The notes beneath the pieces are model-generated. The model saw only the letters and a list, made by a program, of their open reading frames with translations, had not been told where the DNA came from and ran no database searches. This document shows, piece by piece, positions 37,876 through 49,666 of a stretch of 64,000 bases of DNA; position 1 is the stretch's first letter, and every line of letters begins with the position of its first letter. Source of the DNA: Comamonas terrigena NBRC 13299 (lineage in GTDB: Bacteria > Pseudomonadota > Gammaproteobacteria > Burkholderiales > Burkholderiaceae_C). The stretch spans positions 4,359,001-4,423,000 of the forward strand of contig NZ_AP019749.1 of the NCBI RefSeq assembly GCF_006740045.1. Reading direction: 5' to 3'. The position numbers and the translations under genes are program-made.

Positions 37876-38421
37876 TTACGCCTTCCACGCCCCCACATGC
37901 GGGGCCGTGGCTTCGTCGATCAGGGACGGGCCGGTGCACTCCATGGCAAACGGCGCCGCACGGAACACATCGCGGCAGGAAAGCTCCACGTCGCGCTGGT
38001 CCAGGCGCTCGCCGCGGAACACGCGCAGGCGGCGGTCGTCGATGCCATAGACCACGCGGCGGATATTGGCCCAGAAGATGGCGCCGGCGCACATCACACA
38101 GGGCTCGCCGGACGCATAGATGGTGGCCGTCTCCAGCGTGGCGCGGTCGTGGCGCTGGCAGGCGTAGCGGATGGCCTGCACCTCGGCATGGGCCGTGCAA
38201 TCACCGGTTTCGCCATTGCTGTTCCAGCCCTGGCCCAGCACCGTCCCATCGGCACCGATGATGACCGAACCGAAAGGCCGGTTGCCCCGCTCGCGCGCGG
38301 TGCGCGACAGCGCGATGGCCTGGCGCAGATAGCGGCCGTCCCGTTCGTCCACAGCCTGCTCGGCGGCCAGCACCGCCTGTCCGCCTGGCGGGCCTGCAAA
38401 AATGTTTTCAACGGCGTTCAT
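37876..38421 (-). CDS. guaD: Nucleoside/guanine deaminase-like zinc enzyme
   Basis: A 181-residue member of the cytidine-deaminase superfamily, similar to the small bacterial guanine deaminases. Zinc ligands and the catalytic glutamate are in CTAHAEVQAI (H78, E80) and EPCVMCAGAIFW (C108, C111). FGSVIIGADGTVLGQGWNSN and the C-terminal DQRDVELSCRDVF region fit the guanine/nucleoside deaminase group. The ATG at 38421 overlaps the binding-protein stop by four bases, so the two are co-expressed behind a xanthine riboswitch. This supports guanine to xanthine deamination, although substrate identity is inferred. Confidence 0.85.
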   Translation of the reverse strand: MNAVENIFAGPPGGQAVLAAEQAVDERDGRYLRQAIALSRTARERGNRPFGSVIIGADGTVLGQGWNSNGETGDCTAHAEVQAIRYACQRHDRATLETATIYASGEPCVMCAGAIFWANIRRVVYGIDDRRLRVFRGERLDQRDVELSCRDVFRAAPFAMECTGPSLIDEATAPHVGAWKA

Positions 38422-39449
38422 GCAGCGCTCCCTTGCTTGACGGCGGTCGGCAGGAAGGCGGTGTTCCACAGTTTCTCGGGCGCCGGCAGCTGGCCCAGCG
38501 CAAAGGTCTCGCCCACCTCGGCGATCTGCTGCTTCAGCACCGCAGGCACGATGCGGCCCAGGCCGGCAGCCTGCGTCTCGGCGGTGGCCAGGTAGCCGCG
38601 GGTGATGGCCCAGCGCGCGGCTTCCAGATCGGCGCGCAGCAGCGGGTCACGCTGGCGTACGGCATCCAGGCCGGCCTGGGGGTTGGCCAGCATTTCCACC
38701 AGGGCACGCTGCGTGGCACGCAAAAAGCCTTTCAGCGCTTCGGGGCGCTCCTGCATCAGCTTGGTGGAAGCCAGCACCGCATTGCCATACAGGTGCACGC
38801 CGGCATCGGCATAGGACAGCACGCTCAGCTGGGCCGGCGGCATGCGCTGGAACAGCGAGACCGCGGAATCGTGGAAATAGGTGGCGGCATCTACATCACC
38901 GCGCACCACCACGTTGTCGCGGGCGGAGAAATCGGTGGTCACCCACTGGAACAGATCGGCGCCCAGCTTCTGCTGCTTGGCCACCATGGGCCAGCTGCGG
39001 CGGGTGGACTCCACTGCCGCCGCCGCTACCTTCTTGCCCTGCAGGCTGGCAAAACTGGTGCCCACACCCCGGTCCTTGCGACCGATGATGACAAACGGCG
39101 CGCGGTTGTAGTACTGGTAGACGGCCTGCACCGGCAACGCGGTCTCGGCCTTGGCATGGGCCTCGATCAGTGCACTGATGTCGCCCAGGCCCAAGTCGTA
39201 GGCACCGGAAGCCACACGGGTGATGGAAGCCACCGAGCCGGAGCCGGAATCGATCTGCACCTCCAGGCCTTCGGCCGCGTAATAGCCTTTGGCGGCGGCC
39301 AGCACAAAGGGCGCGGTCTGGCTGCTGAACTTGAAATCCAGCGTGAGTTTGAGCGGCTGCAGGGCCTTGGCCTGGGCGTGCACGGCCAGCGGCAGAGCGG
39401 AAGCAGCGGTCAGCGCACAGGCGCTGGAGAGGAAGTGGCGGCGTTGCAT
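38418..39449 (-). CDS. NMT1/THI5-like ABC transporter substrate-binding protein
   Basis: A 343-residue periplasmic binding protein of the SsuA/THI5/NMT1 type. The start MQRRHFLSSACALTAASALP is a Sec/Tat-like signal (cleavage near VHAQA). Domain markers are LTLDFKFSSQTAPFVLAAAKGYYAAEGLEVQIDSG and ASGAYDLGLGDISALIEAHA. AGGAGA lies 8 bases before the ATG at 39449. No permease or ATPase gene accompanies it, so it must work with components encoded elsewhere. The xanthine riboswitch 112 bases upstream indicates that its ligand is a purine or purine-like base. Confidence 0.9.
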   Translation of the reverse strand: MQRRHFLSSACALTAASALPLAVHAQAKALQPLKLTLDFKFSSQTAPFVLAAAKGYYAAEGLEVQIDSGSGSVASITRVASGAYDLGLGDISALIEAHAKAETALPVQAVYQYYNRAPFVIIGRKDRGVGTSFASLQGKKVAAAAVESTRRSWPMVAKQQKLGADLFQWVTTDFSARDNVVVRGDVDAATYFHDSAVSLFQRMPPAQLSVLSYADAGVHLYGNAVLASTKLMQERPEALKGFLRATQRALVEMLANPQAGLDAVRQRDPLLRADLEAARWAITRGYLATAETQAAGLGRIVPAVLKQQIAEVGETFALGQLPAPEKLWNTAFLPTAVKQGSAA

Positions 39450-39560
39450 GACAAATCTCCTGGGATCGTGGGTGCCACGCCGCCGCCGGAAAGCAGAAAG
39501 CAACCGGGCCCGCGCCCATGCCACAACCTGCTCCCTTGCAACGGTGGTGGCAAGGCAGGT

Positions 39561-39622
39561 TGAGCAATTTCCGGGCGTTGGCGGCTGGATACAGCCGCCT
39601 TGCGCTGAACGCTTCTACTCGT
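39561..39622 (-). ncRNA. Xanthine riboswitch (NMT1 motif), copy for the binding-protein/deaminase operon
   Basis: On the minus strand it starts ACGAGTAGAAGCGTTCAGC (39622-39604), continues with a GC-rich hairpin whose arms are GGCGGCT and AGCCGCC (39580-39599), and ends GGAAATTGCTCA (39572-39561). GAG and CTC at the ends can form the closing P1 helix. The identical conserved strands recur in the opposite orientation at 39791-39850 with a different, covarying hairpin, which shows selection for structure. The pattern matches my recollection of the NMT1-motif RNA, established as a xanthine- and urate-binding riboswitch of betaproteobacteria. Confidence 0.85.
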
Positions 39623-39790
39623 TCGGCGCTGCAAGCATTTGCCGTGCCAGATGTTTGATGCAGCGCAAAAACTTCCGCAACTTTGCGCCGGACCGCCGCC
39701 ACGGAATCGGGCCGCCATGCCATCGGTGCACGGCACGCCCCGGCACCCGGTCCGGCACGCTGGCACAGCTTGTGCATGCATGTGCAGCGC

Positions 39791-39850
39791 ACGAGTAGAA
39801 GCGTTCAGCACCGTCCCCTGTACCACAGGGGGCGGGCAGGAAATTGCTCA
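39791..39850 (+). ncRNA. Xanthine riboswitch (NMT1 motif), copy for the oxygenase gene
   Basis: Plus-strand copy: ACGAGTAGAAGCGTTCAGC (39791-39809), a hairpin with arms CCCCTGT and ACAGGGG (39815-39831), then GGAAATTGCTCA (39839-39850). The 19-base and 12-base conserved strands are identical to the divergent copy at 39561-39622, while the hairpin sequence differs but still pairs. It lies 157 bases before the ATG at 40007. Confidence 0.85.
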
Positions 39851-39854
39851 GGCC

Positions 39855-39884
39855 GCACGGTGGCGGGAAGCCCCCGCACCGTGC
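39855..39884 (+). promoter_or_regulatory. Strong hairpin just after the plus-strand riboswitch
   Basis: GCACGGTG (39855-39862) pairs with CACCGTGC (39877-39884), with more pairing inside (CGGG with CCCG). It begins four bases after the riboswitch. It has no U-run, so a plain intrinsic terminator is unlikely. It may be part of the expression platform or a Rho-related pause element; the minus-strand copy has no equivalent hairpin. Confidence 0.5.
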
Positions 39885-40006
39885 GCCGCGCCTGAGGGCT
39901 GGACGCCACCTGCAAGACCGCTGCACCAGCAGCGTGCACGGCCACCCAGCCTGGGGCATTCACCACACCGTAGCACTCACCTGCTCCCTGTTTTGGAAAG
40001 CCAGCC

Positions 40007-41014
40007 ATGCTGAACCCTGTCACCACCACTCCCCCCGCCCCCTCCGACTTCGCGCTGGAAGAACTGCGCAAGGAATCCACCATGGGCACCGAAGGCACGA
40101 CCGTGGCGCGCGAAGTGCGCGTGATCGATCTGAGCGACTTCGAGGCCCGCCGCGCCGAAATCACCGAGCAGCTGTGGAGCGCTGCGGTGGAAATCGGCTT
40201 CTTCCAGGTCAGCCACCACGGCATTGCCCAGGCCGACATCGATGCGGCATTCGCCCGCTCTGCCGCCTTCTTTGCGCAGGCCGAAACCACCAAGGCCCAG
40301 TGGCCGCTGGCGCGCAACGCCGGCTGGGAAAGCCGTGCGCAGATCCGCCCCTCCACGGGCAAGGCCGACCTGAAGGAAAGCTACCAGGTCACCCGCCCGC
40401 GCATGGCCGGCCTGTGGCCGACCGAGGCCGAACTGCCCGGATTTCAGGCCGACACCCTGGGCTTCGAGGCGCAATGCTGGGCCGTGGGCATGCGCGTGCT
40501 GTCCTGCTTTGCCGACAAGCTGGGCATGGAGCGCGACTTTTTCACCCGCGCCCACAACCCGGCCAGCCCGCACTACCAGAGCACGCTGCGCATGCTGCGC
40601 TACTTTGCGCCCCAACCCGGCCAGGAACCCGGCGCCTGGCGCGCCGGTGCGCACACCGACTTCGACTGCCTGACCCTGCTTTTCCAGCGCCCCGGCCAAG
40701 GGGGGCTGCAGGTGCTGCCCGGCAAGGAAATGGAAGGCCGTGCCTGGACCCCGGTGGAGCCCATGGAAGGCGTGATCACCTGCAATATCGGCGACATGCT
40801 GATGCGCTGGAGCGATGACCAGCTGCCCTCCAACTTCCATCGTGTGAAGAACCCCGCTGCGCATGAATACCAGGGCGACCGCTACAGCCTGGCCTTCTTC
40901 TGCCAGGCCGACGAGGACGTGCTCATCCACAGCAAGAGCGGCAAATACCCCGATATCACCGCCGCCGAGTACCTGAAGCAGCGCATCAGCGCCAACTTCT
41001 CCAACAAGTACTGA
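40007..41014 (+). CDS. 2-oxoglutarate/Fe(II) oxygenase, isopenicillin-N-synthase type
   Basis: A 335-residue non-haem iron oxygenase. The DIOX_N region (VIDLSDFEARRAEI, GFFQVSHHGI) is followed by the 2OG-FeII domain with iron ligands H216 and D218 (GAHTDFDCLTLLFQ) and H278 (PSNFHRV) and the 2-oxoglutarate-binding R292-x-S294 (DRYSLAFF). Placement behind a xanthine riboswitch suggests a purine or purine-breakdown substrate; that is inference. An ATG at 40082 with AAGGA 7 bases upstream may be the real start, giving 310 residues. It is the only gene of its transcript that I can see. Confidence 0.88.
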   Translation: MLNPVTTTPPAPSDFALEELRKESTMGTEGTTVAREVRVIDLSDFEARRAEITEQLWSAAVEIGFFQVSHHGIAQADIDAAFARSAAFFAQAETTKAQWPLARNAGWESRAQIRPSTGKADLKESYQVTRPRMAGLWPTEAELPGFQADTLGFEAQCWAVGMRVLSCFADKLGMERDFFTRAHNPASPHYQSTLRMLRYFAPQPGQEPGAWRAGAHTDFDCLTLLFQRPGQGGLQVLPGKEMEGRAWTPVEPMEGVITCNIGDMLMRWSDDQLPSNFHRVKNPAAHEYQGDRYSLAFFCQADEDVLIHSKSGKYPDITAAEYLKQRISANFSNKY

Positions 41015-48100: not shown

Positions 48101-49666
48101 TTACAGCGTCTTGCGCAGATTGGCCGGCGCGATCTTCAGCGCCTCACGGTACTTGGCCACGGTGCGGCGGGCGCACTCGATGCCCTGCTCCTTGAGCATT
48201 TCGGCGATCTGGCTGTCCGACAGCGGCTTCTTGGCGTTCTCGGCCGAGACAAACTGCTTGATCAGCGCCCGCACTGCGGTGCTGGAGGCATTGCCGCCGG
48301 TTTCCGTGCCCAGCCCGGAGCCGAAGAAATACTTGAGCTCGAAGGTGCCGTGCGGCGTGGCCATGTACTTGGCGGTGGTCACCCGGCTGATGGTGGATTC
48401 GTGCAGGCCCAGTTCGTCGGCGATGTCGCGCAGCACCAGCGGGCGCATGGCCAGCTCGCCGTGCACGAAGAAGTTCTTCTGCCGCTCCACGATGGCGCGC
48501 GACACCCGCAAGATGGTGTCGAAACGCTGCTGCACGTTCTTGATGAACCAGCGGGCTTCCTGCAGGCGCTGCTGCAGGCCGGCATGGCCTTCGCTGCCCT
48601 TGTGGCCGCGCAGCGCACCGGCATACACATCGTGCACGCGCAGACGCGGCAGCACGTCGGGGTTGAGCTGCACGTTGAACTGGGGTGTGCCTTCGCTGGC
48701 GCGGCGGCCGGCGCGGGTGACGATCACGTCCGGCACGATGATGTTGCGCTCCACATTGACAAAGCGCCGGCCGGGCCGGGGCTCCAGCCGGGCGATCAGT
48801 GCCATGGCCATGCGGGTGCGCTCTTCGCTGCTGCCGGTGGCCTGCATCAGGCGGCGCACATCGCGCCGGGCCAGCAGGTCCAGCGGCTGGGCGCAGATGG
48901 TCAGCGCCGTCTCCACCACACTGGCCTCGGCCTCACCGCGCTGCAGCAGATGGTTCAGCTGCAACTGCAGGCATTCGGCCAGCCCCTGGGCGCCCACGCC
49001 CACCGGCTCCAGGCTGTGCAGCAGCCGCAGTGCCACGGTGAAGCGGTGCACCAGCTCGTCGAGCTGCTCTGGATCGTCCGTGCCGGCCAGGCCCTCGGCC
49101 AGGGACTGCAGCGACTCTTCGAGGTAGCCGTCGTCATTCAGGTTCTCGATCAGGAAACGCAGCACATAGCGGTCCAGCTCGGACAGGTGCAGCGACAGCG
49201 ACTGGCGCAGCAGGTGGTCGGTCAGCGATTCATGTGCACGGGCCAGATCCAGGGCGCTGACCTCGTCGCCATCGCCGCCCTGGGCGTTGCGCGCCGGGGC
49301 ATCGCCGCCCCATTCGCTGTCATCGGGGCGCAGTTCGCTGGTGCCGTCGCCCTCCCAGTCGGGGGCATCGTATTCCGTGCTGCCGGGGCCTTCCGCACTG
49401 TCGGCGGGCGCCTCCGCAGCCCCTGCCGTCAGCGCGCCATCGGCGGCATAGTCATCGCCCTGCGCCGGCGTGTCCGACTGGGACAGGCCGAAGTCTTCGC
49501 GGGGGGCGTCGTCGCTGTCGACTTCCAGAAACGGGTTGTCGTCGAGCATCTGCTCGACTTCCTGCGCCAGCTCCAGCGTGGACAGCTGCAGCAAGCGGAT
49601 CGACTGCTGCAATTGCGGCGTCAGCGCCAAATGCTGCGACACCCGCAGTGACAAACCAGGCTTCAA
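48101..49666 (-). CDS. rpoN: RNA polymerase sigma-54 factor
   Basis: A 521-residue alternative sigma factor. Region I is glutamine/leucine-rich (LRVSQHLALTPQLQQSIRLL at the N-terminus), followed by an acidic, low-complexity region II (about residues 50-130), the core-binding domain (ALDLARAHESLTDHLLRQSL, DGYLEESLQSLAEGL), the DNA-binding segment (LGLHESTISRVTTAKYM) and the RpoN box ARRTVAKYRE (about 499-508). It lies downstream of lptA-lptB, as in most proteobacteria, but 56 bp after lptB. The start at 49666 is the conserved MKPGLSLRVSQ. Confidence 0.97.
   Translation of the reverse strand: MKPGLSLRVSQHLALTPQLQQSIRLLQLSTLELAQEVEQMLDDNPFLEVDSDDAPREDFGLSQSDTPAQGDDYAADGALTAGAAEAPADSAEGPGSTEYDAPDWEGDGTSELRPDDSEWGGDAPARNAQGGDGDEVSALDLARAHESLTDHLLRQSLSLHLSELDRYVLRFLIENLNDDGYLEESLQSLAEGLAGTDDPEQLDELVHRFTVALRLLHSLEPVGVGAQGLAECLQLQLNHLLQRGEAEASVVETALTICAQPLDLLARRDVRRLMQATGSSEERTRMAMALIARLEPRPGRRFVNVERNIIVPDVIVTRAGRRASEGTPQFNVQLNPDVLPRLRVHDVYAGALRGHKGSEGHAGLQQRLQEARWFIKNVQQRFDTILRVSRAIVERQKNFFVHGELAMRPLVLRDIADELGLHESTISRVTTAKYMATPHGTFELKYFFGSGLGTETGGNASSTAVRALIKQFVSAENAKKPLSDSQIAEMLKEQGIECARRTVAKYREALKIAPANLRKTL

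Follow-up and report, generated by a model that had tools for sequence, protein, structure and literature searches.

The xanthine (NMT1) riboswitch class described by Yu & Breaker in 2020 binds xanthine and urate, acts as an OFF switch and has pcbC, NMT1 and tadA as gene partners (PMC7373994). The closest described arrangement is that of Hydrogenophaga intermedia S1, for which the legend of Fig. 5A in that paper describes adjacent NMT1 representatives in opposing orientations, and one H. intermedia aptamer, in a lacZ fusion driven by the thiC promoter, behaved as an OFF switch. In the crystal structure of the class the pocket nucleotides are G7, A8, A9, G10, C11, G35, A39 and U40, positions 14 and 37 adjoin this pocket, and the RNA that was crystallised carries A37 (PMC8266621). 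Purine use has also been connected with sigma-54: rpoN1 is required for xanthine as a nitrogen source in Ralstonia solanacearum (PMC4676750), and xanthine dehydrogenase is among the common sigma-54/NtrC targets in Burkholderia cenocepacia, although a B. cenocepacia ntrC mutant shows better growth on uric acid (PMC5491218). These systems resemble the proposal made here in having genes for purine use governed by sigma-54 and by nitrogen. The genes differ, being those for xanthine permease, xanthine dehydrogenase and urate oxidase, and the text consulted of the two papers does not mention a riboswitch (PMC4676750, PMC5491218).

Divergent aptamers and their genes

We have analysed a stretch of 64,000 nt from Comamonas terrigena NBRC 13299, here termed the window, in which a gap of 557 bp, as given in a preliminary description of this DNA, lies between the start codons of a binding-protein gene (39449, minus strand) and an oxygenase gene (40007, plus strand). 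An Rfam cmscan of the whole window gave just two over-cut-off matches, both to RF03054 (curated cut-off 36 bits) and on opposite strands, one in the oxygenase arm at 39788..39854 on the plus strand (47.5 bits, E 2e-7; core GAGTAG from 39793) and one in the binding-protein/deaminase arm at 39557..39625 on the minus strand (42.4 bits, E 5.1e-6; core GAGTAG from 39620). A search of the 4.67 Mb genome, a single contig, returned these two RF03054 matches and no others. The preliminary description had proposed that the same RNA is present twice in opposite orientation and is of the NMT1/xanthine type, and the covariance-model scan of both strands bears out the orientation as well as the identity. 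Its coordinates, common blocks and hairpins were likewise correct, the conserved strands of 19 and 12 bases, ACGAGTAGAAGCGTTCAGC and GGAAATTGCTCA, being found in both copies.

P1, P2a and P2b pairing can be read from the alignment in both window aptamers, and all eight nucleotides of the published pocket are present in both copies. By our reading the minus-strand copy would have a three-nucleotide J2, like the crystallised Ideonella RNA, and the plus-strand copy a two-nucleotide J2 with A at 34, a nucleotide tolerated there in ITC tests (PMC8266621). The variable segments fold with energies of -24.7 and -19.4 kcal/mol (shuffle means -9.7 and -8.7 kcal/mol, respectively), values reached by 0 of 500 shuffles each, and the helix of the plus-strand variable hairpin is extendable to 11 bp. 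The earlier observation that these hairpins differ in sequence and keep their pairing stands; the label of covariation attached to it does not, since unlike hairpins are not aligned sites. True covariation of the aptamer stems is modest: in the 43 relatives compared, the first position of P2a is a UA pair in 25, a GC pair, with both sides changed, in 6 and unpaired in 12, and P1 is invariant in these relatives and therefore mute on covariation, either way.

The minus-strand unit begins with an NMT1/THI5-like periplasmic binding protein (38421..39449; PF09084, E 4.8e-34), followed by a TadA-like/cytidine-type deaminase (37879..38469, minus strand; PF00383, E 3.8e-24) that falls below the cut-off of the TadA model NF008113, with 83 of 150 bits. 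The plus-strand gene at 40007..41011 encodes a 2OG-Fe(II) oxygenase of the DIOX_N/isopenicillin-N-synthase type (PF03171, E 1.8e-21; PF14226, E 3e-15), for which an NCBIfam scan gave no match. By the Pfam families of the flanking genes, the window aptamers sit 5' of NMT1/THI5, pcbC or tadA-type genes, as does the class. The binding protein, which the deaminase follows within 37879-39449, starts like a signal peptide; no ABC permease or ATPase adjoining it was found among the genes scanned. PF02738, the molybdenum-hydroxylase domain that occurs in xanthine dehydrogenases, has one match in the genome, so that a purine oxidase other than the 2OG oxygenase is conceivable.

Compared with the RF03054 class, the window is alike in covariance model, core nucleotides, P1/P2a/P2b and gene partners, and its aptamers are no different. 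As in H. intermedia S1, opposing aptamers lie beside NMT1, pcbC and tadA genes; comparison with the legend and text for that strain indicates two NMT1 genes there and one in the window (PMC7373994). Earlier publications cover the riboswitch class, its gene partners and the divergent arrangement, of which the window is a further member. By analogy with the published class, from which ligand and direction are taken, xanthine should shut both window arms down because the class is an OFF switch. The idea that one metabolite gates both operons fits, with the amendment that the direction would be OFF, that the oxygenase is only a putative purine oxidase and that the arrangement had been printed in 2020.

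The aptamer core lies 157 nt (plus strand) and 112 nt (minus strand) from the start codon. In unconstrained folds of the leaders P1 is absent and part of its 3' strand is taken into a hairpin further downstream, and with the aptamer imposed as a constraint each leader loses about 8 kcal/mol; the predicted folds are compatible with a two-state switch. No clear alternation between an exposed and a hidden ribosome site was seen between the states of these leader folds. In a weak comparative test for an alternative stem with the P1 3' strand, p <= 0.05 was reached by 29 of the 101 oxygenase leaders, by 5 of the 64 binding-protein leaders and by 7 of the 42 others. An intrinsic terminator was considered as the expression platform and rejected, the search giving one site on the minus strand against a shuffle mean of 0.6.

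Sigma-54-type elements upstream of the aptamers

The preliminary description missed the sigma-54 elements of the locus and a systematic arm difference in its relatives. The motif was first spotted by reading upstream of the aptamers of the window's clade, in which TGGCA(C/T)...GC precedes both arms, and sites were scored against TGGCAC-N5-TTGCW with exact spacing over 11 positions. In the window, sigma-54-type -24/-12 elements with 10 of 11 consensus positions are located at 39761..39776 on the plus strand (TGGCACAGCTTGTGCA) and at 39634..39649 on the minus strand (TGGCACGGCAAATGCT). By convention a sigma-54 transcript starts approximately 12 nt past the -12 box, which gives predicted starts at ∼39787 and ∼39623. 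Both strands of the window together hold 7 sigma-54-like sites scoring at least 10, 41 at least 9 and 211 at least 8; the two aptamer-side elements are among the seven. For the simple pattern TGGCAC-N6-TGCW, 5 window matches compare with an expectation of 1.4. A single sigma-54 site is unconvincing alone and the claim therefore rests on position and recurrence. Sigma-70 promoters for the two units were also sought and rejected, with 0 sigma-70-like sites in 39420-40030. The window itself carries the rpoN (sigma-54) gene (48101..49666, minus strand; ORF of 521 aa; PF04552, E 5.7e-65 within the frame), and NtrC is encoded elsewhere in the genome (627 bits, over cut-off).

Recurrence was assessed over 80 nt 5' of each of 208 distinct beta/gamma-proteobacterial leaders, taken from loci L001-L139. 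With sigma-54 spacing, 200 of the 208 score at least 8/11 and 130 reach 10, compared with 6 to 43 leaders at 8 for nine alternative spacings and with a mean of 6.2 (maximum 11) in shuffles. The proportion at 8 or above is similar by arm: oxygenase 97/101, binding protein 62/64, unassigned 40/42 and deaminase 1/1. The distance from the G of the -12 GC to the aptamer core is 14-19 nt in 196 of these 200 leaders, so that transcription is expected to begin 1-6 nt ahead of the core. Five of the eight failing leaders retain TGGCA(C/T) and TTG and are without the GC only. The leaders are mutually related, and grouping similar upstream regions, which reduces the effect of kinship without removing it, leaves 118 clusters, of which 111 score at 8 and 96 at 9 (cluster shuffles at 8: mean 3.2, maximum 7). 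When the 118 clusters were searched for gapped patterns without a preset motif, the top-ranking ones were GGC-N8-TG, found in 103, TGG-N9-TG in 98, TGG-N10-GC in 100 and GGC-N9-GC in 100, all of which are parts of one predicted sigma-54 element; for TGG-N10-GC 9.2 clusters were expected, and the maximum for any pattern in any shuffle set was 29. As a computed pattern, the promoter link is strong.

TPP riboswitches of the same genus, 30 loci fetched from a longer list of matches, served as a control and gave 2/30 at 8 or above and 0/30 at 9 in 80 nt, and 3/30 and 0/30, respectively, in 150 nt. Twenty further arms were obtained from class and phylum searches: the element is at the usual distance in 13, three score at least 8 at 29-41 nt, and four are without a worthwhile element, three of these coming from two genomes outside the class. 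As failures occur mostly in genomes outside the class, the link looks like a beta/gamma-proteobacterial trait, the sample outside being thin. None of 7 oxygenase loci without an aptamer has a sigma-54 score of 8 or above in the 500 nt upstream; 5 of the 7 have a cobalamin riboswitch, and their context thus differs.

The stretch between the two promoter elements of the window (39650..39760) offers possible room for enhancer-binding-protein sites, but no convincing NtrC site was found, the best NtrC-like match in the inter-aptamer interval being only 7/10. In the intervals of 85 relatives, NtrC-like palindromes of at least 9/10 occur in 19 (shuffles: mean 0.33, maximum 2). Other palindrome spacings are also raised, 15/85 with a gap of 4 and 12/85 with a gap of 12, and the NtrC-like palindromes are therefore a hint only. 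A 10/10 palindrome, TGCAC-N7-GTGCA, lies between the promoters in L101, L108, L110, L118, L123 and L125 and was not found in the window.

The divergent pair in relatives and the difference between its arms

Of 53 genomes of the genus, 28 carry an RF03054 match; in 23 of them two divergent copies lie no more than 1 kb apart, and the other 5 have single copies. In the family sample a match was found in 75 of 399 genomes, three of the 75 belonging to the genus, and a divergent pair in 44 of the 75, with 59 to 305 bp between the paired aptamers. No convergent or same-strand pairs within 1 kb were detected in either sample. Among named oxygenase loci, 16 of the 80 fetched were scanned with Rfam and 12 of these 16 have a close pair, including loci from Franconibacter, Pantoea, Pseudomonas, Cupriavidus and Pigmentiphaga. 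In the search with the oxygenase, the named relatives that matched best were Comamonas aquatica (79% identity) and C. avium (78%). The pattern search used for the leaders agreed with the covariance model on 29 of 29 aptamers at the 16 scanned loci, the other leaders not all being model-checked, and it missed one weak aptamer of 39.1 bits in L102. In C. aquatica and C. avium a guanidine-II riboswitch is found on the minus strand no more than 2 kb from the pair (L060:1826-1869 and L061:1852-1898). The record L118, titled Chryseobacterium, resembles the Citrobacter record L123 in arm coordinates and cores and is possibly mislabelled or a mixed assembly.

The two arms were compared at 86 loci where an oxygenase arm is accompanied by a single other arm, whatever the distance, using the numbering of the crystal paper (PMC8266621), in which P2a consists of U13-A38, U14-A37 and C15-G36. 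In 77 of the 86 pairs position 37 is U or G on the oxygenase side and A on the partner, and the reverse was observed in 0; the remaining 9, the window's genome, three clade relatives and five others, have A37 on both arms. Counted by arm, 87 of the 101 oxygenase arms are without A37, as is 1 of the 107 others; per distinct core the counts are 23 of 32 and 1 of 22, respectively, in a set obtained with a pattern that fixes U at position 14 and in which many genomes are closely related. Pfam assigned ten genes behind unassigned arms to six NMT1 proteins and three Rieske oxygenases, with one without a family. The contact between 14 and 37 on the oxygenase side is non-canonical yet kept, which suggests function. 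Because both window arms have A37, the arm difference is not seen in the window; the predicted arm subtypes apply to the relatives, from which the window departs. The presence of GGAAATTGCTCA in both window arms, while the arms of C. testosteroni differ from each other, hints that gene conversion may have occurred between the two arms in this clade.

Proposed control of the two units

From the aptamers, promoter elements and gene families of this locus and their recurrence, all established by computation, we infer that both units are under two-layer control, by a sigma-54 promoter and then by a xanthine/urate OFF aptamer, a reading to which we assign a probability of roughly 0.8. Each of the two divergent units would be transcribed from a sigma-54 promoter. 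Such promoters depend on NtrC or some other activated enhancer-binding protein, so that both units would probably be opened under nitrogen limitation. The RNA would begin within a few bases of the xanthine/NMT1 aptamer, binding of xanthine or urate would lock P1 and the J1-J2 pocket, and the downstream gene would be turned off, most likely at translation, which presumes that aptamer and ribosome site are coupled through leaders of 112-157 nt. One unit would supply the binding protein and the deaminase and the other the 2OG/Fe oxygenase, enzymes whose substrates are presumably purines. The net logic would be scavenging of purines when nitrogen is short and a stop once oxidised purine has accumulated.

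An ordinary xanthine riboswitch pair transcribed from sigma-70 promoters, with the sigma-54-like sequences inert or otherwise used, would have in its favour that the motif is short, as the 211 window sites scoring at least 8 on both strands attest, and that arms without it exist (8/208 and 4/20); moreover, the published reporter switched from a thiC promoter, so that the native promoter is not needed (PMC7373994). Against these points, 39420-40030 contains no sigma-70-like site, enrichment is specific to one spacing and a fixed distance of 14-19 nt over 118 clusters, and TPP riboswitches of the genus show the motif in 2/30 only, and we regard sigma-70 transcription as improbable. The identity of the conserved blocks in the two copies and their inverted orientation would also be expected of DNA operators for a protein. 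This explanation deserves almost no weight, as the RNA model is over its cut-off, experiments have established the class (PMC7373994, PMC8266621), 206 of 208 relatives have an inter-block segment that folds below its own shuffle mean, and single copies occur in 5 of the 28 matched genomes of the genus.

A different objection concerns the common gate itself, in that the arms of most relatives may be tuned differently, in affinity or in ligand, giving two set points. The one-sided loss of A37, in 77 of 86 pairs with 0 reversals, at a site adjoining the pocket of the crystal structure (PMC8266621) argues for such tuning, whereas the window has A37 on both arms, the pocket nucleotides are identical in both arms, the crystallised RNA is itself of the A37 type, and the search pattern fixes U at position 14; we consider separate tuning possible, if rather doubtful. 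Two-layer control and arm subtypes may also be joined in a composite beta/gamma-proteobacterial device, a sigma-54 promoter firing into an aptamer that occurs in two arm subtypes with different set points, which we put forward tentatively and at somewhat less than an even chance. In such a device transcription would read nitrogen status and translation oxidised purine, the different set points would stem from the non-Watson-Crick contact between 14 and 37 that is kept in the oxygenase arm, and the window's clade would have lost, or never had, the arm difference.

Beyond the known pair, the additions made here are the promoter link, as a computed pattern, and the putative arm subtypes of the relatives. 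No mention of sigma-54 promoters at xanthine riboswitches was found in a literature search covering main texts, largely of open-access papers; the main text examined of the RF03054 class papers does not mention a sigma-54 element upstream, and the main text of a 2025 sigma-54 regulon survey is without the words 'xanthine', 'purine' or 'NMT1' (PMC12316311). The arm difference at 14/37 is likewise not mentioned in the text consulted of PMC7373994 and PMC8266621, consensus figures aside. Yu & Breaker left open why oxidised purines should be monitored with an OFF switch (PMC7373994). The recurrent sigma-54 link offers a testable answer, that these may be nitrogen-scavenging operons with a product brake, and it would make this riboswitch class an instance of one coupled to a single alternative sigma factor. 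The link also predicts where the riboswitch RNA begins, and the arm-specific change beside the pocket singles out aptamers for side-by-side comparison.
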